From: Flagellimonas sp. HMM57
GTDB lineage: Bacteria; Bacteroidota; Bacteroidia; Flavobacteriales; Flavobacteriaceae
Length of the DNA stretch: 64,000 nt
NCBI RefSeq assembly: GCF_021390175.1
Contig: NZ_CP090004.1
Location: 620,001 to 684,000 of the forward strand
Direction of reading: 5' to 3'
Below the pieces are notes generated by a model, which did not search any database, was not told the origin of the DNA, and saw nothing but the letters and a program-made list of their open reading frames with translations. Below are positions 41,065 through 52,613 of the stretch, in pieces. The first letter of the stretch is position 1, and each line of letters begins with the position of its first letter. The translations under genes and the position numbers were made by a program.

Positions 41065-41643
41065 TTAAGATTCATTTTTATAATATTCTGTTAAAATCTT
41101 CCGTAAATTCTTTCTCGCCCTAAATAACAATGACTCGACCGAGGACACACTTTTTTCTGTAATTTCACTCACTTCCTTATAACTCATCTCATCTATTTTA
41201 TGCAAAATAAACACCACTTTTTGTGCTTCTGGTAATTTATTTATCGCTTTAAACAAAAGCTCACTCATCTCCTTGTTTTCCAATTGTACACCTGGATGAT
41301 TGTACTCGGTAAAATAAGAAGATTTGTCAATGGGTATTATGTTTCCAGTAATGGATTGCATAAATCCAAAACGTTTTTTCGTTTTCTTTTTACGTATGAA
41401 TTCCAAGCTTTTGTTTACACAGATTCGATAAATCCATGTAGAAAGTTTGGAGTCGCCCTTAAACTTTTTAATGGAATTATAAACCTCAACAAATACTTCT
41501 TGGGCAATATCTTGGGCATCTTCTTTATTGGGAACAAAAGAGAGGCACGTATTAAAAACCATGCCTTGATATTCATCCAACAAACGAGCATATGCTGACT
41601 GCTTATGTTTTTTAAGATCTTCTAAAAATTGCTTGTTCTCCAA
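41065..41643 (-). CDS. ECF RNA polymerase sigma factor
   Basis: A 192-residue sigma-70-family factor of the extracytoplasmic type. Region 2 shows YARLLDEYQGMVFNTCLSFVPNKEDAQDIAQEVFVEVYNSIKKF (key residues YQ-MV-DAQDIAQEVF); region 4 shows LPEAQKVVFILHKIDEMSYKEVSEITEKSVSSVESLLFRARKNL (key residues LPE-QK-VF-YKEV-S-SVESLLFRAR). The start is a TTG at 41641-41643, because an in-frame stop lies just upstream and the next ATG would cut into region 2. It heads an operon with a small membrane protein and a CpxP-like protein, so it probably responds to envelope or metal stress. Confidence 0.9.
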   Translation of the reverse strand: MENKQFLEDLKKHKQSAYARLLDEYQGMVFNTCLSFVPNKEDAQDIAQEVFVEVYNSIKKFKGDSKLSTWIYRICVNKSLEFIRKKKTKKRFGFMQSITGNIIPIDKSSYFTEYNHPGVQLENKEMSELLFKAINKLPEAQKVVFILHKIDEMSYKEVSEITEKSVSSVESLLFRARKNLRKILTEYYKNES

Positions 41644-42957: not shown

Positions 42958-45582
42958 TCAAAAGAACAATCTTAAGGTGGCATTAGGCATAAACCCTAGT
43001 GACAATTGCTCAATCTGATCTAACTCTTGCCTACCTGTATCCGGGTTTTCATCTACACGATAAAAAACAGATATTGGTATTTGTCTACTGTATAGGTTTT
43101 GGAAAGAGACTCCAAAAGTGCCGCGAAAACCATTGTTCTCAGCTTTTCCAAACTTATATAACAAAGAAGCGTCCAGACGATGATAATTAGGAAGTCGTCT
43201 GCTGTTCAAACTACCAAAATCAATATCCCCGGTAGTTTCACTAAAGCTATCTACTGGTGTAAAGGGAGTCCCCGTTCTGTAAGTCCATCCTAAAGACAAT
43301 TCCCAATTCTGAACATCCAAGGTATTTGATATTCTAAAATTATGGGTCACATCATTATTTCCAGGAAAAGGGTTTGACTGTAATGCTTCAAACGTATACT
43401 CCACATTATTGTAGGTATAACCCAACCAAACACGGTAATCTGCAATGGACTTTCTTAGCAATACATCAACTCCAAAAATATCACTTTCTCCTTGTGATAA
43501 ATCCTCGGCCGCATTTGTGAACCCATTGGTAAAAGAGGTTAGTCCCGTTATGTTCTTAACATACCCGTCAACATCAAATGTCCATCCGTTTGAGTTCACC
43601 AATAAACCACCAGAAAACTGGGTGCTCTCCAAAATTGGTATTTCATTACCATCAGAAAGCGTCCAAATATTATTTTCCAGTCTAAGTTGTGTATCCTCAA
43701 ATTCGATAATCTGGCTAACAGGCTGGTATCGTACTTCGGCCGTGCCTTTTACACGAATTATAGGAGAAAGTGGATACTCAATATTGACCCTAGGTTCAAA
43801 ATAAAGCTCATCAACAGATGAATAATGAGAGCCTCGGACACCCACACTTACCAATCCTTTGTTTTGGGGCTTAAAAATGTATTCGCCGTACACAGAGTTG
43901 GTCTGGTTGGTATTGTTCCGTCTCACATTAAAATCTCTTGTAGTTGATGGCAATGGAATCTCATCATCATCATCTGGTTCAATATCATCATCACCTGCTT
44001 CATCCCGAAACAATTGGAAAAAAACATCCAAGTTAGAATATTGGTATCCTAATTTTATGGAATGTTGCGGAACAAATTCGTAAGCTAAATTAAAATCCAA
44101 ACCATAGTCTTCGACTGTATTTCTTCTGAAATTTCGTTCCTCCACTTCCAAATCTTCACTTACCACGTTATTATATTCACTGTCAAAACTGGAGTAATAA
44201 GCCTTTATTGAATGCTGTAATTTACCAAATTTGGTTCCGTTCCAATTAAAGCTTGCACCTTGGTTTTCAATGATGAGCCTATCTTCCGTTATATCTTCCT
44301 CATCTCTTGAGGAAAAATCAAGGTCATTGTTCGTATAAAGCCCACTAATGGAAATATTATCGTTTTTAGAAGGTTGAATCAGCAATTTGGCACTACCATC
44401 GTAGAAAAAGAATTTATCACCACCTAAAATCTCACTGAAATCATCATCATCATCTTCTATTACTTGGCCAGATACATCTGTAACCACTTTTGTATTTTGA
44501 AATACTTTTTCGGAAAGGGCAGTATACGTTGGAGTTCTCAAAACATCTGTATAAGACCTTCTTGCGGATAAAATCAAAGCTGCCTTTTTTCCTAATGCAG
44601 CTTTTAAAAAAGCATCTGCATGTGTACCATTAATACCAATCCCTGCATTGGTTTTTTCGGGAACATTAGCATCTGTAGTGATATCTATAACTCCCGAAAT
44701 ACGGTCACCATATTCTGGACTTGCACCTCCTTTATAGATTTTAGCACTTTCCGTCACGTATGGATTGAAAGCTGAAATCATTCCAAAAAAGTGTCCAGTA
44801 TTGTACATTTTGATGCCATCGTAAAAAATCAGGTTTTGGTCCGGTGAGCCACCACGGATTTGAATTCCCGCAGCGGATTCGTCCAGACTGGTAATCCCGG
44901 GAATCAACTGTATACTCTGAAATACATCTGGCTCTACCAAACCCGGTAAAATCCCTTGTTTGGCATTGTTCAAGGTAAACGACCCATCTGTATTCTTATC
45001 AATACCTGTAGTGAGATAGGCCAAGACCACTACTTCTTTCAAAGATTGTGCTTCTGGTAGTAGAATTATGTTTTTACAATTATCTGTACTATAATCCAAT
45101 GCCTTTAGAATCTTATCGCCAAAACCAACATATTGAACAAGTATATTTTGACTTTGATCGATATCTTTTATTTGAAAGAAACCGTTTTCATCGCTTGTAA
45201 CACCAGTGGTAGTTCCAACCACTAGCACTGTAGCATAAGGCAAAGGGGTACTTGTGTCGCTATCGAACAAATAACCGCAGATATCCATTTTTGTGGAAGG
45301 AACACTTACTATAACTTGATTTTCCGAAACTTTTTCAAAAACCAATTCAGTTTGTTGCATCAATTCAGCAAATAGTGCACTTTCTGTTACACTTGTAGTT
45401 GAAAGGGTTATCTGTTTACCCGCAATTGACTTCTCTGAATAAGAAAACGTAAGGGCAGTTCTAGATTCTAAATCCAATAACACTTCTTTTAAACTTGTGC
45501 CGTTATAATCAACGGCAATCCCTTCTTGGCAAAAAGCGTTGAATGAACTCAATACCAATAATAAGCACAGTAATTTTCTCAT
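42958..45582 (-). CDS. TonB-dependent receptor with STN signalling domain
   Basis: An 874-residue outer-membrane receptor. After a signal peptide (ending NAFCQ, about residue 19) comes an STN domain (about 22-95, LKEVLLDLESRTALTFSYSE), then a carboxypeptidase-regulatory-like domain (about 100-185, GYLFDSDTSTPLPYATVLV), a TonB plug (about 215-305, IRGGSPDQNLIFYDGIKMYNTGH) and a long barrel ending in Phe. The STN domain marks receptors that signal to a FecR anti-sigma factor, and fecR and an ECF sigma gene lie directly upstream. No SusD or siderophore gene is adjacent, so the ligand is unknown. An acidic D-rich loop (near 540-550, DDDIEPDDDDE) could bind metal. Confidence 0.92.
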   Translation of the reverse strand: MRKLLCLLLVLSSFNAFCQEGIAVDYNGTSLKEVLLDLESRTALTFSYSEKSIAGKQITLSTTSVTESALFAELMQQTELVFEKVSENQVIVSVPSTKMDICGYLFDSDTSTPLPYATVLVVGTTTGVTSDENGFFQIKDIDQSQNILVQYVGFGDKILKALDYSTDNCKNIILLPEAQSLKEVVVLAYLTTGIDKNTDGSFTLNNAKQGILPGLVEPDVFQSIQLIPGITSLDESAAGIQIRGGSPDQNLIFYDGIKMYNTGHFFGMISAFNPYVTESAKIYKGGASPEYGDRISGVIDITTDANVPEKTNAGIGINGTHADAFLKAALGKKAALILSARRSYTDVLRTPTYTALSEKVFQNTKVVTDVSGQVIEDDDDDFSEILGGDKFFFYDGSAKLLIQPSKNDNISISGLYTNNDLDFSSRDEEDITEDRLIIENQGASFNWNGTKFGKLQHSIKAYYSSFDSEYNNVVSEDLEVEERNFRRNTVEDYGLDFNLAYEFVPQHSIKLGYQYSNLDVFFQLFRDEAGDDDIEPDDDDEIPLPSTTRDFNVRRNNTNQTNSVYGEYIFKPQNKGLVSVGVRGSHYSSVDELYFEPRVNIEYPLSPIIRVKGTAEVRYQPVSQIIEFEDTQLRLENNIWTLSDGNEIPILESTQFSGGLLVNSNGWTFDVDGYVKNITGLTSFTNGFTNAAEDLSQGESDIFGVDVLLRKSIADYRVWLGYTYNNVEYTFEALQSNPFPGNNDVTHNFRISNTLDVQNWELSLGWTYRTGTPFTPVDSFSETTGDIDFGSLNSRRLPNYHRLDASLLYKFGKAENNGFRGTFGVSFQNLYSRQIPISVFYRVDENPDTGRQELDQIEQLSLGFMPNATLRLFF

Positions 45583-45592
45583 TTTGAAAAAT

Positions 45593-46507
45593 TTATTGGG
45601 TATTTAGCAATACTTTTTTTTGGTCTTCAGAAATCTCGTAGGCAATTCCCATAGGCACAAATACAGTTTTTAGGGCAATTTCTAGATTATCATGAACAAA
45701 GCTGCCCGTAAAACCATCTCCGTTATTAGTTGTACCATATTGTATCGTTATGCCATATTGAGCTTCCAATTCTTTGATAACTTCGCTTAAATCGGCATTG
45801 GAAAACGCACTGCTTCCTTTGGTCCATGAAGGAAAAGCACTTTGGATTTTCTTTGCCTTTATTACGCCATTTCCATCAATATCAATAGCATCTCCCTGTT
45901 TTAAAATCGCTTCTTTTTCTGCATTTGGCGATTCAAATCTTACTTTCCCTTCGTAACAAGTCAAAGAAAAATTGGAAGTTCTCGCCCTTACATTGAATTC
46001 CGTACCAAGAACAGAAACAGTTCCCGATTGGGTTTCCACCTTAAAACCGTCTCCCTTTTCCACTTTAAAAAAGGCTTCCCCTTTAAGATTTACCGTCTTG
46101 TTGTTTTTCCAAAAAAAACGGTTGTGGGCAATTGTTGTCCCTGCATTAAGCTGCACTGTAGAACCATCTGGCAGTGTAACCACCAATTGTTCCCCATACG
46201 CTGTTGCATAGGATACCTCATTAAAGAAAATACCAATAATCAATACTATAGAAGCCGCTACACCAACAGCATAATAAAGTGGTCTTAGACGAATTACTTT
46301 TCCTTTTGGTCTTTCATCAATTTTAGCCATTACCTTACTTTTTAATGACGCTGTATCAAAGCTTGGCTTTTTAAATTGATTCATACCCTGAACGATTTGC
46401 TGATACTCCAAAAATTCAGGATCGTTTTCAAACTCGCCCTGTTCTTCTGCTGTAAGCTCGCCCGCCAACCATTTGGCTAATATTGTATCGTTTTTGTCTT
46501 CAAACAT
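45593..46507 (-). CDS. fecR: FecR-family anti-sigma / sigma regulator
   Basis: A 304-residue inner-membrane protein: a cytoplasmic N-terminal domain (about 1-80, LAKWLAGELTAEEQGEF) that binds the sigma factor, one membrane helix (about 87-104) and a periplasmic FecR domain (about 110-215, VTLPDGSTVQLNAGTTI, GEAFFKVEKG, VLGTEFNVRA). The C-terminal part (about 230-304, FSNADLSEVIKELEAQYGITI) resembles the STN-binding tail of Bacteroidota FecR. It begins 48 bases after the sigma gene and has its own promoter-like motif in the gap. Confidence 0.93.
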   Translation of the reverse strand: MFEDKNDTILAKWLAGELTAEEQGEFENDPEFLEYQQIVQGMNQFKKPSFDTASLKSKVMAKIDERPKGKVIRLRPLYYAVGVAASIVLIIGIFFNEVSYATAYGEQLVVTLPDGSTVQLNAGTTIAHNRFFWKNNKTVNLKGEAFFKVEKGDGFKVETQSGTVSVLGTEFNVRARTSNFSLTCYEGKVRFESPNAEKEAILKQGDAIDIDGNGVIKAKKIQSAFPSWTKGSSAFSNADLSEVIKELEAQYGITIQYGTTNNGDGFTGSFVHDNLEIALKTVFVPMGIAYEISEDQKKVLLNTQ

Positions 46508-46524
46508 TTTTATAGATTCAATGA

Positions 46525-46557
46525 GTGAACAGGTTAAAAGTGAATTACCCTACCCCT
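46525..46557 (-). promoter_or_regulatory. Bipartite ECF promoter motif before fecR (copy 3)
   Basis: On the minus strand AGGGGTAGGGTA (46557-46546), 13 bases, then CTGTTCAC (46532-46525), about 17 bases before the fecR ATG. It matches the two plus-strand copies at 47087-47119 and 49661-49693 in both boxes and exact spacing. The first box overlaps the stop codon of the sigma gene. Confidence 0.75.
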
Positions 46558-47068
46558 AAATATTTTTTATTGTTTTTCTCATTTTAACCAATGCCTTGTG
46601 CATTCGTTTTTCTACTGCTTTTTGGGATACCCCAAGCATTTCTGCAATTTCCCTATACGTTTTTTTATCTATCCGGTTCAACAGAAAGACCTCTCGCTGT
46701 CCTTCGGGCAGTGCATTGATCGCATTTTGGAGTTTTTCCATAAACTCGCGCTCTTCGATTTTATATTCTGGCGTTTCAATATTTGATGAGCTTCTGGGAA
46801 TTTTGGAATATTCCAGCACAACTTTCTTATGGGCCACTTGGTTGTAAAAAGCATTCTTTGCAACCGTATACAAAAAGGCTTTGGCCTTTTCCACAATCAC
46901 TTTTTTGCAGTTGTCCCAAAGCTTTATAAAAGCCTCTTGGGCCAAGTCTTCCGCTTGTTGTAAGTCACCGCATTGGTAATACAGGTAGTTACAAAGCGTC
47001 TGGGAATTAAGATCAAAAATTCGATTGAAAATTTTTTGATCGCAAACTGAGTTTTCAGTATCTGCCAT
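46556..47068 (-). CDS. FecI-type ECF sigma factor
   Basis: A 170-residue sigma factor of the Bacteroidota FecI-like group. Region 2 is LCNYLYYQCGDLQQAEDLAQEAFIKLWDN (key residues Y-AEDLAQEAF-KLW), region 4 is LPEGQREVFLLNRIDKKTYREIAEMLGVSQKAVEKRMHKAL (key residues LP-QRE-F-TY-EIA-LG-S-KAVEKR). It heads the sigma-fecR-TonB receptor unit, so it is likely released when the receptor binds its ligand. The three bipartite motifs nearby are its best candidate promoters. It is divergent from the transglutaminase-7TM operon across a 79-base spacer. Confidence 0.93.
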   Translation of the reverse strand: MADTENSVCDQKIFNRIFDLNSQTLCNYLYYQCGDLQQAEDLAQEAFIKLWDNCKKVIVEKAKAFLYTVAKNAFYNQVAHKKVVLEYSKIPRSSSNIETPEYKIEEREFMEKLQNAINALPEGQREVFLLNRIDKKTYREIAEMLGVSQKAVEKRMHKALVKMRKTIKNI

Positions 47069-47086
47069 TAAGCATTCTTTTAAGGG

Positions 47087-47119
47087 AGGGGTGGGGTATT
47101 TATTTTTTTGGCTGTTCTA
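47087..47119 (+). promoter_or_regulatory. Bipartite ECF promoter motif before the transglutaminase-7TM operon (copy 1)
   Basis: AGGGGTGGGGTA (47087-47098), 13 bases, CTGTTCTA (47112-47119), ending 28 bases before the ATG at 47148. Both boxes and the spacing are identical to copy 2 at 49661-49693. Confidence 0.8.
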
Positions 47120-47147
47120 GTATCAAAAATAATAAAATATATACGTC

Positions 47148-48737
47148 ATGAAGGTCTCTTTTAATTTAAGAACAGTTATAACAGGCATATTGGTCTTAGT
47201 GGTCATATCCCTTGTGCTGAAGCTAATTCCCCTCAGTAAAAATATTGATGACTTCTATGCGGAAGAAATGTATCAGGTAACCTACAAGTATTTTTTAAAG
47301 ACCGACAAAAGAAAGACGACATTGAAAACATACTTGCCAAAAAACAATGGACATCAACGTATAACTAACGAAAAATTTGACGGTAAGCCTTATTGGGCAT
47401 TTGAAAAACAGGCCGTTGGCAATAATCTTAAAGGCCTATGGATTACTGGAAAAGAAGACTCTTATGAAAGTATTGACTACCGATTTACTTTCGAAGGAAA
47501 ACCCAAGTCATACATAGTACCGACTTTTTTTACCAAAAACAATCTTGTACAAAATAAATTTTTAACATCTAGCGAGTTTATTCAAAAAGACCACGGTAAG
47601 ATTGCCCATAAGGCCAAAGAATTGTCCAAAGATTCACAAAATGACAGGCAACGAATCCAAAATATATTTGATTTTGTCTATAACGTTCCTGTCGCCCCTA
47701 TTATAAACTTGACAGACGCAATTACGGTCTTAGACCAAAACAGGGCTTCATGTAATGGAAAAAGTAGGTTAATGGTCGCTTTGGCAAGAAATCTGGGGTA
47801 TCCAGCAAAAATTAAAGGGGGTATTATTCTAGAAGAAACGAACAAGAGAACTTCTCATGCATGGGTAGAGGTCAATATTAATGATAAATGGGTTCCCTTT
47901 GATCCCTTAAATGGCCATTTTGCTTACCTGCCCCCTAATTATCTAGAACTATATGAAGGGGATGAATTTTTAATTACACATACACCCAACATTCAACTAG
48001 ATTACATCTACGAAATCAATAAACAGCACAAAGTGCCCTTTTTGAACATGAATGCTAAAGAGGTCAGTGAGATATCCGTAATCTCATTATGGGGGCTTGT
48101 TGAAAATAAGATTATCTCAACAGATGCATTGTTACTTCTTTTAATGTTACCCATTGGTGGATTATTGGTTGCATTCCTGAGAAATGTGGTCGGGTTACGA
48201 ACTTTTGGTGTTTTCCTTCCAGTTTTAATAGCATTTGCATTACTGGAAACTGGTTTCTTAACAGGAATAATTCTTTTTATTTTCCTTATTCTTTTTGTTG
48301 GGTTGATTTCCAGACCGTTCAATAATTTAGGCCTACTGCATACACCCAAGCTGGTAATATCGCTAACACTGATGGTACTGGTAATGACCTTGGGTTCTTA
48401 TATTGGAACGCTACATGAAATAACCTGGTTGACAGCATTGACCTTCTTCCCCACAATAATCTTAACAATTTCTGCCGAACGGTTTTCAACTTTAATCATT
48501 GAAGATGGTTTTCAAAAAGCGACGGGAACACTTTTTCAAACCCTGATAGCAGTGAGCTTCTGCTTCTATATGCTATCCAATCAATGGTTGTCTTCCATTC
48601 TAATTCTATTTCCTGAAATTCTTTTCATTGTCATCATACTGGCTATGCTATTGGGCAAATATATTGGCCTACGTTGGACAGAACTGATTCGATTTAAACC
48701 TTTGTTAAATCCAAAACCATACAGCCATGTTGCATAA
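47148..48737 (+). CDS. Transglutaminase-like / 7-transmembrane protein (UUP1 family) with intact Cys-His-Asp triad
   Basis: A 529-residue membrane protein: one N-terminal helix (about 9-27), an outer domain with a transglutaminase-like core (about 160-275), and about seven helices from 325 to 505. This is the architecture of the families named inactive transglutaminase fused to 7TM (UUP1). Here the three catalytic positions look present: Cys202 in RASCNGKSRLMVALARNLGYPAK, His237 in SHAWVEV and Asp252 in VPFDPLNG. The gene overlaps an ATP-grasp ligase gene by 11 bases. In other bacteria such pairs are thought to act in peptide or envelope modification. Its promoter motif links it to the nearby ECF sigma factor. 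Confidence 0.82.
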   Translation: MKVSFNLRTVITGILVLVVISLVLKLIPLSKNIDDFYAEEMYQVTYKYFLKTDKRKTTLKTYLPKNNGHQRITNEKFDGKPYWAFEKQAVGNNLKGLWITGKEDSYESIDYRFTFEGKPKSYIVPTFFTKNNLVQNKFLTSSEFIQKDHGKIAHKAKELSKDSQNDRQRIQNIFDFVYNVPVAPIINLTDAITVLDQNRASCNGKSRLMVALARNLGYPAKIKGGIILEETNKRTSHAWVEVNINDKWVPFDPLNGHFAYLPPNYLELYEGDEFLITHTPNIQLDYIYEINKQHKVPFLNMNAKEVSEISVISLWGLVENKIISTDALLLLLMLPIGGLLVAFLRNVVGLRTFGVFLPVLIAFALLETGFLTGIILFIFLILFVGLISRPFNNLGLLHTPKLVISLTLMVLVMTLGSYIGTLHEITWLTALTFFPTIILTISAERFSTLIIEDGFQKATGTLFQTLIAVSFCFYMLSNQWLSSILILFPEILFIVIILAMLLGKYIGLRWTELIRFKPLLNPKPYSHVA

Positions 48738-49599
48738 GCTATTTCAAATAAAGAATCCGAACGGTGTTATGGGGCTCAATAAAAGAAATCTGGAATTGAT
48801 ATACCCCAATAATAAAAGAGAACACTATAGTCTTGCAGATGATAAGGTAAAAACTAAAGAAATTCTACATAGAAATAATATTGCATGTGCAGAAACATAC
48901 AGTATAATAACCAAGGTCAGCGAAATCAAGAAAAAATGGAAATCTTGCCAAGACAAAAATGCCATGGCCATAAAACCGGCCAATGGTTGTGGAGGTGGTG
49001 GGATTAAAATCTTAAAAAAGACTTCTGATGGACAATGGAAAAGCGGAGAAAAAATCATTACAGAAGCTCAAATCTTCCAACATATTACCAGTATCGTCTC
49101 GGGTTTCTTCTCCATGAATTCTTCGGATAGTTGTTTAATAGAGGAATGTATAGTCCCCCATCCTTTTTTTGCGGAAATCTATGATGAAGGGGTACCCGAT
49201 TTTAGGGTCATTACCCTTAAAGGAAAACCTATCATGGGAATGTTGCGCATGCCCACATCAAAATCTGACGGTAAAGCCAACCTACACCAAAGAGGCGTTG
49301 GCATAGGGGTTAATCTAGAAAAAGGAACCCTTACCCAAGTTTATGATGGAAATCGATATTTGGACCATCATCCTGACAATCCAATCAAAATATTTGGAAA
49401 ACCGATTCCGTATTGGAAAGAAATGATAGCATTATCCATAAAAACATCAAAAGTCTTTCCGTTGGACTACCTAGGTATAGATTTGGTTATCGATGCGGCT
49501 AAAGGACCTCAGATTATGGAAATCAACGTACGTCCTGGTTTAGGAATACAACTTGTAAATAAATGCGGATTGGAAAACGCCGTAAAGGATAACTACTAA
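48727..49599 (+). CDS. ATP-grasp ligase (alpha-L-glutamate ligase-like)
   Basis: A 290-residue RimK-like/sugar-transfer-associated ATP-grasp protein that would form an amide bond using ATP. The N-terminal part GVMGLNKRNLELIYPNN (about 12-28) and DDKVKTKEILHRNNI are typical; the ATP-binding loop is MAIKPANGCGGGGIKIL (about 80-96), and the metal-binding end is DLVIDAAKGPQIMEINVRPGLG (key residues D-G-EIN-RPG, about 257-278). No signal peptide: cytoplasmic. It overlaps the transglutaminase-7TM gene by 11 bases, implying translational coupling and a joint function. Substrates are unknown. A RimB-like protease, the frequent third partner, is not adjacent. Confidence 0.87.
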   Translation: MLHKLFQIKNPNGVMGLNKRNLELIYPNNKREHYSLADDKVKTKEILHRNNIACAETYSIITKVSEIKKKWKSCQDKNAMAIKPANGCGGGGIKILKKTSDGQWKSGEKIITEAQIFQHITSIVSGFFSMNSSDSCLIEECIVPHPFFAEIYDEGVPDFRVITLKGKPIMGMLRMPTSKSDGKANLHQRGVGIGVNLEKGTLTQVYDGNRYLDHHPDNPIKIFGKPIPYWKEMIALSIKTSKVFPLDYLGIDLVIDAAKGPQIMEINVRPGLGIQLVNKCGLENAVKDNY

Positions 49600-49621
49600 A
49601 CAGAACGACCTACTCCCACTT

Positions 49622-49660
49622 AAAAAATCCAGCTTCAAAAGGCTGGATTTTTTGTTTTTA
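49622..49660 (+). terminator. Terminator after the ATP-grasp gene
   Basis: AAAAAATCCAGC (49622-49633), loop TTCAAAAG, and GCTGGATTTTTT (49642-49653), then GTTTTT. It ends exactly where promoter copy 2 begins, so the barrel gene is a separate transcription unit. Confidence 0.9.
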
Positions 49661-49693
49661 AGGGGTGGGGTAAATAAGTAGAAGCCTGTTCTA
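49661..49693 (+). promoter_or_regulatory. Bipartite ECF promoter motif before the outer-membrane barrel gene (copy 2)
   Basis: AGGGGTGGGGTA (49661-49672), 13 bases, CTGTTCTA (49686-49693), ending 35 bases before the ATG at 49729. It is identical in both boxes and spacing to copy 1, while the 13 spacer bases and the flanks differ. Confidence 0.8.
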
Positions 49694-49728
49694 TTAGCGT
49701 AACACAAAACTTCAAATTATTGACCATT

Positions 49729-50874
49729 ATGAAAACTAGAATAATTATACTAATAGTCCTATTGATTTACGTACTGGCAACGTCATTCATTTTTTCACAA
49801 GAAAGCAAACAACGTTTTGTTATGGGCACAGCAGCTGGGTACGAGTACAATTATTTCAAAAGCCCTACAGAGGTTCGGCAGGACACCATTCTCTTTACAG
49901 AAGACGACCTTATCTCTAGCAGTTCTTATGAAGATATTTATGCTGATTACAATTATAGAATCAAATGGAAGGGTAACCGACTTCGTCTTTCGGCCAGTCC
50001 AAATGCCCGTTTGTTCTACGATAACTTTGATGACAGTTATTGGAGCCTTAACGTGAATGCAAAATATGACCGTGAAATAGGTAAGAGCACAGAATTTTTA
50101 GCCCAACTATCCTTTAAAAGAATGAACAGGGAAGGTTTAGATGGCGCCCAAGATGTTTTGGTGAATCCACTTGGATATACGAACTATGGTGTCCGTACAG
50201 GATTGGAAATAAGGCCAATAAAGAAGAATAAAACCACCCTTATGGCTTTTTACAACTTTAAAGATTTTGATGCCTTTGGAATTCGTGACCTTCAGTTCAA
50301 TGAGTTTGGTCTTCAAGTGAATACTAAGCAACAATTTAGGGTGAACCGCCTTCGTCATTCTTACGGTATAAATTCATATATCAAAAAACGATTGTACGAT
50401 ACCTTCAATGCTTCCGATGTAATTACTTCGGGAGAACGAGATTGGAGTTATGTAAAAGCTACCGCATTCTACGAACTACCTATTACTAAAAACTTGGATA
50501 TTGAACCCAGCTATACCTACTATGCACGAATAGATAATATGGATAAACGCTCTGGGTTTACACAAACGGGACCTTCATTGGGAATTGATTTTAACAACGA
50601 TGTAACAAGAGTACGTTCATCTTTAAAATATCTGACTAGAAATTATACTACTCTTGAAGCTAGGGACAATAATGGATCAATTGGAGAAAAAATCAAATAC
50701 CAGTATATGGATATTTCTTTGAATGCTGAGCATCTAATCGGAAAAAATGGTTTTGCACTAACCGCAGAAGCCTATAGCCGTGTTCGCACGACAAACTATA
50801 CAGATATTGATGCTAGGTCTTTTAGAGGATACACAAATCAGTATGCTGGGATAGGTATACGATGGGAATTATAA
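49729..50874 (+). CDS. Outer-membrane beta-barrel protein of unknown function
   Basis: A 381-residue protein with a signal peptide (about 1-23, ending IFSQ) followed by a series of amphipathic strands with aromatic girdles: YNYRIKWKGNRLRLSASP, YWSLNVNAKYDRE, LDIEPSYTYYARIDN, NQYAGIGIRWEL at the C-terminus. I do not recognise a named family. The ATG at 49729 is preferred over the TTG at 49720. It shares an exact promoter motif with the transglutaminase-7TM/ATP-grasp operon and follows it, so I infer a common envelope function, for example as an export or surface partner. It converges with the aldehyde dehydrogenase gene. Confidence 0.78.
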   Translation: MKTRIIILIVLLIYVLATSFIFSQESKQRFVMGTAAGYEYNYFKSPTEVRQDTILFTEDDLISSSSYEDIYADYNYRIKWKGNRLRLSASPNARLFYDNFDDSYWSLNVNAKYDREIGKSTEFLAQLSFKRMNREGLDGAQDVLVNPLGYTNYGVRTGLEIRPIKKNKTTLMAFYNFKDFDAFGIRDLQFNEFGLQVNTKQQFRVNRLRHSYGINSYIKKRLYDTFNASDVITSGERDWSYVKATAFYELPITKNLDIEPSYTYYARIDNMDKRSGFTQTGPSLGIDFNNDVTRVRSSLKYLTRNYTTLEARDNNGSIGEKIKYQYMDISLNAEHLIGKNGFALTAEAYSRVRTTNYTDIDARSFRGYTNQYAGIGIRWEL

Positions 50875-50888
50875 CAATATGTCTATTT

Positions 50889-52475
50889 TCAACTTTTTGG
50901 AGTCACATACTTCCCATCGACCATTCTTAAAATGTTCAACGGATTTCCTTGTTTCAGTTCGTCTGGTAGCAAAGCATCCGGAAAGTTTTGAAAGCACACC
51001 GGTCTGGTATATCTAGTTATGGCAGCTGTACCTACAGATGTCATTCTGGCATCCGTAGTAGCTGGAAAAGGCCCACCATGAACCATAGCGTAACTTACCT
51101 CAACACCGGTTGGAAAACCATTGATCAATACCCGACCCACCTTGCGTTCCAAAATCTTCAATAGCTCAACATGAGCTTTTAAGTCGTCTTCAGTACCATG
51201 AACTGTTGCTGTAAGATGTCCATGCAGACTATTTGCTATAGCTAACATTTCATCTTTTTCTTGGGTTTGTATCAAAAGTGTTGAAGGGCCAAAAACCTCT
51301 TCTTCCAAATCTTTGTCTTCCAAAAAAATGTTTGTCGAAACAGAGACAATTTCAGGCGCGCCTTGATTATATCCTCCACTTTTCACACCCTTTGAAATGG
51401 ACTTGACCTTAGTCTTGGATTTTATTTTTTCAAGCCCGGATTCATATCCTTTTTGAATAGAAGCTGACAACATCGTTGCTGATTCCGAAGTTGAAATTGC
51501 ATTTCTCAATTCTTCCTTAAAAAGAGGAGTCTCATTCACTTTAGGAAGTACCGTAATCCCTGGATTGGTACAAAATTGACCCACTCCCAACTGAACAGAA
51601 TCCGATAATCCTTTTGCAATGGTCTTATACTTTTCCTTTAAGGCCTGAGGCAGAACAAATACCGGATTTACACTGCCCATCTCTGCATATACAGGAATTG
51701 GTTCAGTTCGCTTTGCCGCTTCATCGAACAAAGCCTTTCCTCCTTTAAATGAACCCGTAAATCCAATCGCTTTTATCAATGGATGCCGAACTATTGCTTG
51801 TCCAACCTTATGAGAAACTCCATGGACCATTGAGAATACACCATTGGGCATATTAAATTTCTTGGCCGCCGTGATTATTGCTTTGGCAACCAATTCAGAA
51901 GTTCCCGGATGTAAAGGATGAGCCTTTACGACAACAGTACAACCTGCCGCCAAGGCCGAGACGGTATCACCACCAGCTACTGAAAAAGCCAATGGGAAAT
52001 TACTGGCTCCAAAAACACCAACAGGACCCAAAGGCATTTGCATATAACGAATATCTGGTTTGGGAACTGGTTTTCTTTCTGGATTTGCTAAATCTATTCT
52101 TGCGTCTACCCAGAAACCATCTCTTAATACGGAGGCAAAAAGTTTTAATTGTCCAGTTGTACGACCCAGTTCTCCTTTTAGTCTGCCAGCTGGCAGACCT
52201 GTTTCCTGACTACATAACTTAATTAAGTCCTCCTCAAGTTCCTGTAAATTCGAAACAATCGCGTCTAAGAAAGAAGCTTTTTCCTGTCCAGATTTTTCCC
52301 GATAGATTACAAACGCTTTTTCAGCATAGTTAATCGCGTCACTTATTTCTTCTTCAGTAGCTTCATAAAATGAAGTAGCCAAGTCTTTTCCCGTTGAAGG
52401 GTTTTTGGCATAAAAGATAGTATTCCCTTTACTTGAAAGATGATTGCCCAAAATATTTTTACCACTGATGTTCAT
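50889..52475 (-). CDS. Aldehyde dehydrogenase, likely 2,5-dioxovalerate (alpha-ketoglutarate semialdehyde) dehydrogenase
   Basis: About 528 residues of the aldehyde dehydrogenase superfamily. Catalytic glutamate in YAEMGSVNPVFVLP (about 272-285), catalytic cysteine in LGVGQFCTNPGITVLP (about 300-315); GQFCTNPG is the pattern of alpha-ketoglutaric semialdehyde dehydrogenases. This step belongs to non-phosphorylative sugar-acid pathways, yet the gene lies after the KDG kinase/KDPG aldolase pair of an alginate locus. It may serve another uronate or sugar-acid branch, or detoxify aldehydes formed from alginate. The ATG at 52475 is preferred over a TTG three codons upstream. It is 138 bases downstream of eda, with no clear terminator between. 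Confidence 0.85.
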   Translation of the reverse strand: MNISGKNILGNHLSSKGNTIFYAKNPSTGKDLATSFYEATEEEISDAINYAEKAFVIYREKSGQEKASFLDAIVSNLQELEEDLIKLCSQETGLPAGRLKGELGRTTGQLKLFASVLRDGFWVDARIDLANPERKPVPKPDIRYMQMPLGPVGVFGASNFPLAFSVAGGDTVSALAAGCTVVVKAHPLHPGTSELVAKAIITAAKKFNMPNGVFSMVHGVSHKVGQAIVRHPLIKAIGFTGSFKGGKALFDEAAKRTEPIPVYAEMGSVNPVFVLPQALKEKYKTIAKGLSDSVQLGVGQFCTNPGITVLPKVNETPLFKEELRNAISTSESATMLSASIQKGYESGLEKIKSKTKVKSISKGVKSGGYNQGAPEIVSVSTNIFLEDKDLEEEVFGPSTLLIQTQEKDEMLAIANSLHGHLTATVHGTEDDLKAHVELLKILERKVGRVLINGFPTGVEVSYAMVHGGPFPATTDARMTSVGTAAITRYTRPVCFQNFPDALLPDELKQGNPLNILRMVDGKYVTPKS

Positions 52476-52613
52476 AATACACAAAGCAATAAGTTTATTT
52501 ATTTAAAAGTACTGCTTTATGCAAGACAGTCAAACTTCATAGACCTTCATCATTCATTTGATAAATAATACTAAAGGAAATACTATCTAGCTATTTAATT
52601 CTATAAAATATTA

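Follow-up and report, generated by a model that had tools for sequence, protein, structure and literature searches.

A two-box motif links a FecI-type sigma factor to a RloB-RloC operon and a barrel gene in Flagellimonas: a predicted cell-surface signalling regulon

Introduction

The window analysed here, a stretch of 64,000 bases from Flagellimonas sp. HMM57 (contig NZ_CP090004.1, positions 620,001 to 684,000), holds the gene of a FecI-type extracytoplasmic function (ECF) sigma factor beside the genes of a FecR-type regulator and a TonB-dependent receptor and, on the other strand, a rloB-rloC-like gene pair and the gene of an outer-membrane beta-barrel (Table 1). An earlier note, made from the letters of the window alone, had described a two-box motif, AGGGGTRGGGTA-N13-CTGTTCWM, before fecR, rloB and the barrel gene. 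This raises the question whether the motif is a promoter, which sigma factor reads it and what the controlled genes do. The comparison of genomes points very strongly to a cell-surface signalling regulon, read by the FecI-type sigma factor of the locus at the shared motif.

Table 1. Coordinates of the locus in the window, and of the paralogous sigma gene discussed in the text
Feature	Position	Strand	Basis
TonB-dependent receptor	42958..45582	-	CarboxypepD_reg_2 (PF13715) + Plug (PF07715)
FecR-type sigma regulator, adjoining the sigma gene	45593..46507	-	PF04773 (E=3.3e-20) + PF16344
Candidate ECF promoter of fecR and the TonB-receptor gene	46525..46557	-	exact motif match
FecI-type ECF sigma factor, proposed reader, 170 residues	46556..47068	-	Sigma70_r2 + Sigma70_r4_2
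Candidate ECF promoter of rloB-rloC	47087..47119	+	exact motif match
TAnnTTTG, putative housekeeping-type -7 element of the sigma gene	47124..47131	-	63 bases 5' of the sigma start codon
rloB-like: transglutaminase-like domain + seven-transmembrane (7TM) domain	47148..48737	+	PF01841 + PF14402
rloC-like ATP-grasp ligase	48727..49599	+	PF14397 (E=1.5e-60)
Candidate ECF promoter of the barrel gene	49661..49693	+	exact motif match
Outer-membrane beta-barrel, 16 long strands in the model	49729..50874	+	predicted structure
Paralogous sigma	L007:4103-4600

Results

Motif copies in the window and in the genome of strain HMM57

At up to three mismatches, three matches to the motif were found in the window and all of them were exact. 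In 100 shuffles of the window the mean was 0.01 matches and the maximum 1. The copies thus clearly exceed chance. The three exact copies described in the earlier note are confirmed, and it was also right that the window contains no fourth copy. The two plus-strand copies were confirmed to be alike in 20/20 box positions and unlike in their spacer bases. The motif ended 17 bases before the ATG in the case of fecR (46507), 28 bases before it at rloB (47148) and 35 bases before it at the barrel gene (49729). All three copies were intergenic, apart from a 2-base overlap of the fecR copy with the stop codon of the sigma gene.

The genome-wide search suggested in the earlier note was performed in the own genome of the strain (G000, 4.16 Mb). 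At up to three mismatches it resulted in six matches, and the reversed pattern gave none in the whole genome at the same threshold. Besides the window copies, the search added one near-exact copy (G000:C1:2729967-2729997, plus strand), whose sole mismatch is the first box base, and only two others, both with three mismatches and both within long open reading frames (ORFs). The fourth copy ends 39 bases 5' of lipoB2, a small Asp-rich lipoprotein-like gene (lipoprotein by eye). The gene and the copy belong to a second sigma/FecR/TonB-receptor locus (L007), paralogous to that of the window. With the core-only pattern GTRGGGTW-N13-YTGTT the own genome gave 13 matches vs 3 for the reversed control. 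Six of the 13 were the predicted promoters of both systems and one was a three-mismatch match inside an ORF; none of the remaining six was located directly 5' of an ORF in its own direction.

Conservation of the motif before orthologous genes

In a family sample of 397 genomes a rloB relative was detected in 16, the own genome included. Besides the own genome and G146 (31% identity, on a fragment of 3.7 kb), which was left out here, 14 genomes remained; the sigma-FecR-receptor genes adjoined rloB in 9 of them and did not in 5. The sigma-positive set consisted of 17 genomes from ten genera, eight of the genus and nine of other genera, and a relaxed pattern was searched from 120 bases 5' to 70 bases inside the called ORF start. 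Matches were obtained 5' of fecR in 17/17 genomes and 5' of rloB in all 16 that have the gene, the G217 site coming from a separate inspection of the locus. The same search gave 0/17 for the sigma gene, and autoregulation of the sigma gene through this motif was rejected. The mean information content of the two box columns was 1.86/1.65 bits at fecR and 1.72/1.73 bits at rloB (degenerate G220 site included, G217 left out) with 0.63 and 0.78 bits in the spacers, a contrast partly built in because the sites were chosen by pattern.

The barrel gene has a motif copy of its own in G000, G412, G448, G449 and G120, and a weak one in G288; no match was found before the barrel in 14 of the 20 barrel entries examined. 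In the sigma-positive genomes lacking this copy the barrel gene directly follows or overlaps rloC where it could be seen (G235 is cut before the barrel). In the five genomes with the rloB-rloC-barrel operon and no adjacent sigma gene, the best sigma relatives were at most 49% identical, with none at threshold in G336, and the operon had no match in G336, G156, G098 and G313. In 23 chosen genomes, the relaxed pattern with one mismatch gave 90 matches vs 40 in the control. The 44 matches with zero mismatches were all in the 17 sigma-positive genomes, from which the pattern itself had been drawn.

Linkage to the sigma orthologue in the genus

Among 71 genomes of the genus, a sigma orthologue (at least 68% identity; next best 59%) was found in 8. 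The rloB gene was present in 7/71 genomes, and 7/7 of these were among the 8 with the orthologue (Fisher 6e-9; such values overstate independence because the genomes are related, which tempers this support for the regulon). By rloB, the nearest named records were Flagellimonas/Allomuricauda (5 loci). The 30-base motif occurred without mismatch 14 times, in 6/8 sigma-positive and 0/63 sigma-negative genomes. With at most one mismatch there were 20 copies in 6/8 sigma-positive genomes vs 6 copies in 6/63 sigma-negative ones. Nineteen of the 20 precede a gene: fecR (6), rloB (5), the barrel (4), lipoB2 (3) or a DUF1800 gene (1). The earlier note had named the FecI-type sigma factor as the natural reader, which the tie between motif and orthologue supports.

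G442 shows a natural deletion: the stretch of about 47143-50898 with rloB, rloC and the barrel gene is missing, and the window sequence to either side of it can be aligned, 44001-47142 with 81% identity and 50899-52518 with 84%. This genome keeps the sigma gene (94%), an exact fecR promoter motif and an exact lipoB2 copy. In its orphan rloB promoter both boxes are changed and the spacer is 2 bases shorter, resulting in 3 mismatches at spacer 11 and 6 at spacer 13. A motif conserved for the sake of the gene that follows it would be expected to decay in this way. What the comparison shows, at the level of sequence, is the motif and where it lies, that it is linked to the sigma orthologue and that it decayed when the target was lost. 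From this we infer that the motif is a promoter in the strict sense, read by this sigma factor, with FecR acting as in Fec systems.

Several observations weigh against the regulon. The single copy in the sigma-positive genomes that precedes no gene, a one-mismatch copy of G442, falls within an ORF of the opposite strand. Three of the six sigma-negative genomes with a one-mismatch copy were opened: in G417 the copy precedes a GDSL lipoprotein gene that adjoins the remnant of a receptor gene, and in G416 and G430 no gene follows the copy in its own direction. With two mismatches allowed, 46/71 genomes had matches, 97 in total vs 74 for the reversed control, so that this level is mostly background. 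G399 and G447, whose sigma factors are more diverged (68%), fit the strict pattern at 2-3 mismatches only. G220 keeps a degenerate copy before its operon with no close sigma gene, and the paralogous sigma factor could read some of the copies.

Alternative readers and the sister systems

If the copies are promoters, they might be read by the paralogous sigma factor (Table 1) or by both sigma factors in cross-talk. The recognition helices are nearly alike (SQKAVEKRMH vs SVKAIEKRMH), the fourth copy sits in the paralogous locus, and a comparison of the sister systems' motifs indicates that the core and the 13-base spacing are common, with differences in the outer bases. For the paralogous locus 23 genomes were inspected, of which 8 have the sigma orthologue and 15 lack it. 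The locus was present in 15/15 of the latter, yet the exact copy was found in none of the 63 sigma-negative genomes. Its own genes carry a distinct motif, GTAGGGTW-N13-YTGTT, detected 5' of fecR2 in 22/22 genomes (one contig is without fecR2), 5' of lipoA2 in 23/23 and 5' of the paralogous sigma gene in 0/23; the GGGGTnGGGT form was seen at 0/45 of the fecR2 and lipoA2 sites. The three bases 5' of GTAGGGT were AAA in 15/22 cases at fecR2 and 8/23 at lipoA2 and varied in the others. At lipoB2, in contrast, the GGGGT form was found in 3/3 genomes that have both this gene and the orthologue (one with CGGTTC as the second box) and in 0/3 without the orthologue. Reading by the paralogue, alone or together with the orthologue, is unlikely.

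An operator for a DNA-binding regulator is still less probable, no search aimed at shared regulators having been made. The layout is asymmetric and two-boxed with fixed spacing, the copies of the own genome stand 17-39 bases 5' of start codons, the second box contains TGTT, and sister motifs occur at sister sigma loci. For a dispersed repeat or a chance resemblance, the few one-mismatch copies in sigma-negative genomes and the one inside an ORF in G442 could be cited. However, the copies retain their location 5' of orthologous genes in ten genera and the chance expectation in the window is 0.01, which leaves this explanation with hardly any probability. A repeat element was rejected since spacers and flanks differ between copies while the position is kept. 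The regulon read by the FecI-type sigma factor is thus preferred, and the claim of the earlier note that the motif is a promoter rather than a repeat gains support from the matches before fecR and rloB over ten genera, from the decay in G442 and from the sister motifs.

A third group (G424, G425 and G410), with sigma factors 57-59% identical, carries AAATAGGGTA-N13-YTGTTG 5' of the sigma gene in 3/3 genomes by eye. Within the orthologues the recognition helix varied along with the first box. The helix [EQ]TAIEKRMQ (three orthologues: G399, G447 and G120) was accompanied by T at box position 6 before rloB, and SQKA[VI]EKRMH (13 orthologues with rloB) by A or G. The site before fecR in G120 is an exception with G at this position. 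G442, which is without rloB, has the helix SQKAVEKRMH. As G399 and G447 are close, the covariation represents one or two events, not three. Three sister sets of sigma factor and promoter in one genus form a natural set for the study of ECF site choice in Bacteroidota.

Putative promoter of the sigma gene

The element TAnnTTTG, described in a passage of PMC7366714 as the -7 promoter element of the Bacteroidota primary sigma factor, was located 59-75 bases 5' of the sigma gene in 15/17 genomes, but not in G399 and G447 (long sigma ORFs were trimmed to 170 residues for this distance). It lies on the opposite strand just beyond the -10 box of the divergent rloB promoter. The conservation downstream of the boxes was 1.13 bits at rloB vs 0.62 at fecR, and the element fits that excess. 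RNA polymerase bound at rloB would cover it, which suggests negative feedback on sigma synthesis: the sigma factor with RNA polymerase at rloB may shut off the synthesis of new sigma factor.

The products of the target operon

The RloB-like protein scored 121.4 bits against NF052267 (cutoff 900) and is therefore a distant relative. In its predicted model (predicted local distance difference test, pLDDT, 83.8) the N-terminal part resembled the putative cysteine protease 3isr from Cytophaga hutchinsonii (Foldseek E 8e-16; template modelling (TM) score 0.72 by target and 0.41 by query). In the sequence profile alignment (E 1.4e-4) C202, H237 and D252 fell on the C, H and D of 3isr. Among the matches listed (120 of 426 homologues) the triad was C-H-D in 118 and S-H-D in 2. 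In the locus sequences covering it, leaving out G146 and a second fragment of G449, C-H-D was found in 20/21 and S-H-D in G336. Judged by these residues, the transglutaminase-like domain keeps a Cys-His-Asp triad and is active-looking. In an unannotated Aeromonas caviae locus, identified as rloABC-like by comparison, the corresponding residues were not C/H/D, in an alignment that is weak because identity is low.

The RloC-like protein reached 256.5 bits with TIGR02291 (cutoff 314.2). The barrel model had a pLDDT of 88.4; the protein gave no Pfam family match, and assigning its function by fold was rejected, as the matches were generic porin-like folds with TM-scores near 0.4. The RloA-type retropepsin family PF05618 gave no match in the own genome or in any of the 16 genomes with the sigma orthologue and rloB. 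It matched in 4/23 genomes searched (G442, G220, G336 and G098), where the proteins may be RimB-like. RloA encoded elsewhere in the genome was rejected as a candidate: the matches of G220, G336 and G098 are at least 80 kb from rloB, and G442 has no rloB.

Of the signalling genes, the sigma factor scored 125.3 bits with TIGR02985, slightly under the cutoff of 126.4. The receptor has an N-terminal extension of about 80 residues that is STN-like by eye, and a Pfam search as permissive as E=10 gave no STN match. With TIGR04056 the receptor gave 49.9 bits, far below the cutoff of 368.25, and it is not SusC; a general Pfam scan detected no SusD among the locus genes, and no search aimed at SusD was made.

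Discussion

As in the Fec system of E. coli, the sigma gene here would have a promoter of another kind. In E. coli fecR goes with the sigma gene, whereas here it shares the sigma-type promoter with the receptor gene. The FecI-FecR-FecA system as outlined in a passage of PMC9249621 likewise has an ECF sigma factor, a FecR-type regulator and a TonB receptor as neighbours, and a receptor gene whose promoter is attributed to the sigma factor. In contrast to that system, the proposed targets here are rloBC and the barrel gene; Pfam detects no STN domain in the receptor, whose N-terminal extension is STN-like by eye. For Bacteroides ECF systems and SigW-1, passages of PMC12596196 and PMC11501099 likewise describe envelope targets, a non-housekeeping promoter and TGTT near -10. 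TGTT is linked to the ECF sigma factor in PMC12596196, where the passage calls the authors' motif not significant, and no first box like GGGGTRGGGTA appears in the passages of these two papers. The open-licence literature yielded no flavobacterial ECF/FecR promoter and no paper under the RloB Pfam names; a search with strings like the motif gave no title on it among the matches listed. One paper naming RloB and RloC was found.

That paper, PMC12239564, places in the passages used here a 7TM RloB with a periplasmic transglutaminase-like domain beside an ATP-grasp RloC in Pseudomonas aeruginosa, the same pairing as in the window. The transglutaminase is there called inactive, the operon also encodes a secreted retropepsin, RloA, and 96% of RloB matches are placed in Proteobacteria. 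Mutants that lack the RloA proteases are rescued by mutations in rloB and rloC, and in vitro RloA cleaves poly-glutamate (passages of PMC12239564). The Flagellimonas locus differs in its intact triad, in a genome without a PF05618 protein and in the added outer-membrane barrel. In Shewanella vesiculosa, disruption of an 'inactive transglutaminase' gene raises vesicle output (a passage of PMC12096838). Effects on hypo-osmotic growth and on the release of vesicles are reported for gammaproteobacterial relatives. The signalling layout is a familiar one; new are the proposed target genes, an RloB that looks active in a genome without RloA, and the overlap of the two promoters. The analysis offers a predicted regulon, promoter and sensor for a Bacteroidota branch of the RloB-RloC system. 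Finding the triad intact, when the family has been described as inactive, opens its function to direct testing.

In the proposed mechanism the sigma gene would be expressed from its housekeeping-type promoter, and the TonB receptor and FecR would hold or release the sigma factor depending on an outside ligand. The freed sigma factor would guide RNA polymerase to AGGGGTRGGGTA-N13-CTGTTC and transcribe fecR with the receptor gene, as a feedback, together with rloB-rloC, the barrel gene and the lipoprotein gene at the paralogous locus. What the operon makes can be put forward only tentatively. RloC might ligate amino acids into a peptide-like product, which the 7TM protein would handle at the inner membrane, the transglutaminase-like domain would cut or attach in the periplasm and the barrel would pass through the outer membrane. 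An equally doubtful extension takes the whole as a surface-signalled amino-acid-polymer system of Flavobacteriia. Here RloC would build the chain, an active periplasmic RloB peptidase or transpeptidase would replace the gammaproteobacterial RloA, and the barrel would export or receive the polymer. The TonB receptor would sense the product and control its own sigma factor, with a shut-off at the overlapping divergent promoter and a -35 code in which SQKA[VI]EKRMH goes with GGGGTRGGGT and [EQ]TAIEKRMQ with GGGGTTGGGT.

Additional observations

GDSL-type lipoproteins (PF13472) encoded at L076:9169-9960, L081:3-730 (below cutoff) and L088:3411-4154 adjoin a receptor gene or its remnant. A motif copy stands before the GDSL lipoprotein gene in G417 (one mismatch) and in G455 (two mismatches), which suggests that this lipoprotein is a further member of the regulon. 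G455 also carries an exact 30-base copy 5' of the DUF1800 gene (L067:2515-3873), on a 3.9 kb contig. Copies with two mismatches in G449 and one in G096 lie 5' of genes that are lipoprotein-like by eye, with the family unassigned (L154:2544-3461 and L155:3257-4610). In some sigma-negative genomes of the genus, copies of the form GGGGTAGGGTA...TTGTTC were seen, of which L079:8736-8765 and L080:9441-9470 are without a gene ahead in their direction.

The window contains a second ECF sigma gene at 41065-41643, which has a different region 4 and small genes behind it and is not linked to the motif. In G217 an internal stop breaks rloB (L094:8267-9930), although this genome retains rloC, the barrel gene and the motif of the promoter. 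Between the paralogous sigma gene and fecR2, head-to-tail short units resembling CCATCAA occupy L007:3612-4102 (G000:C1:2727611-2728101), an array that opens spurious repetitive ORFs.

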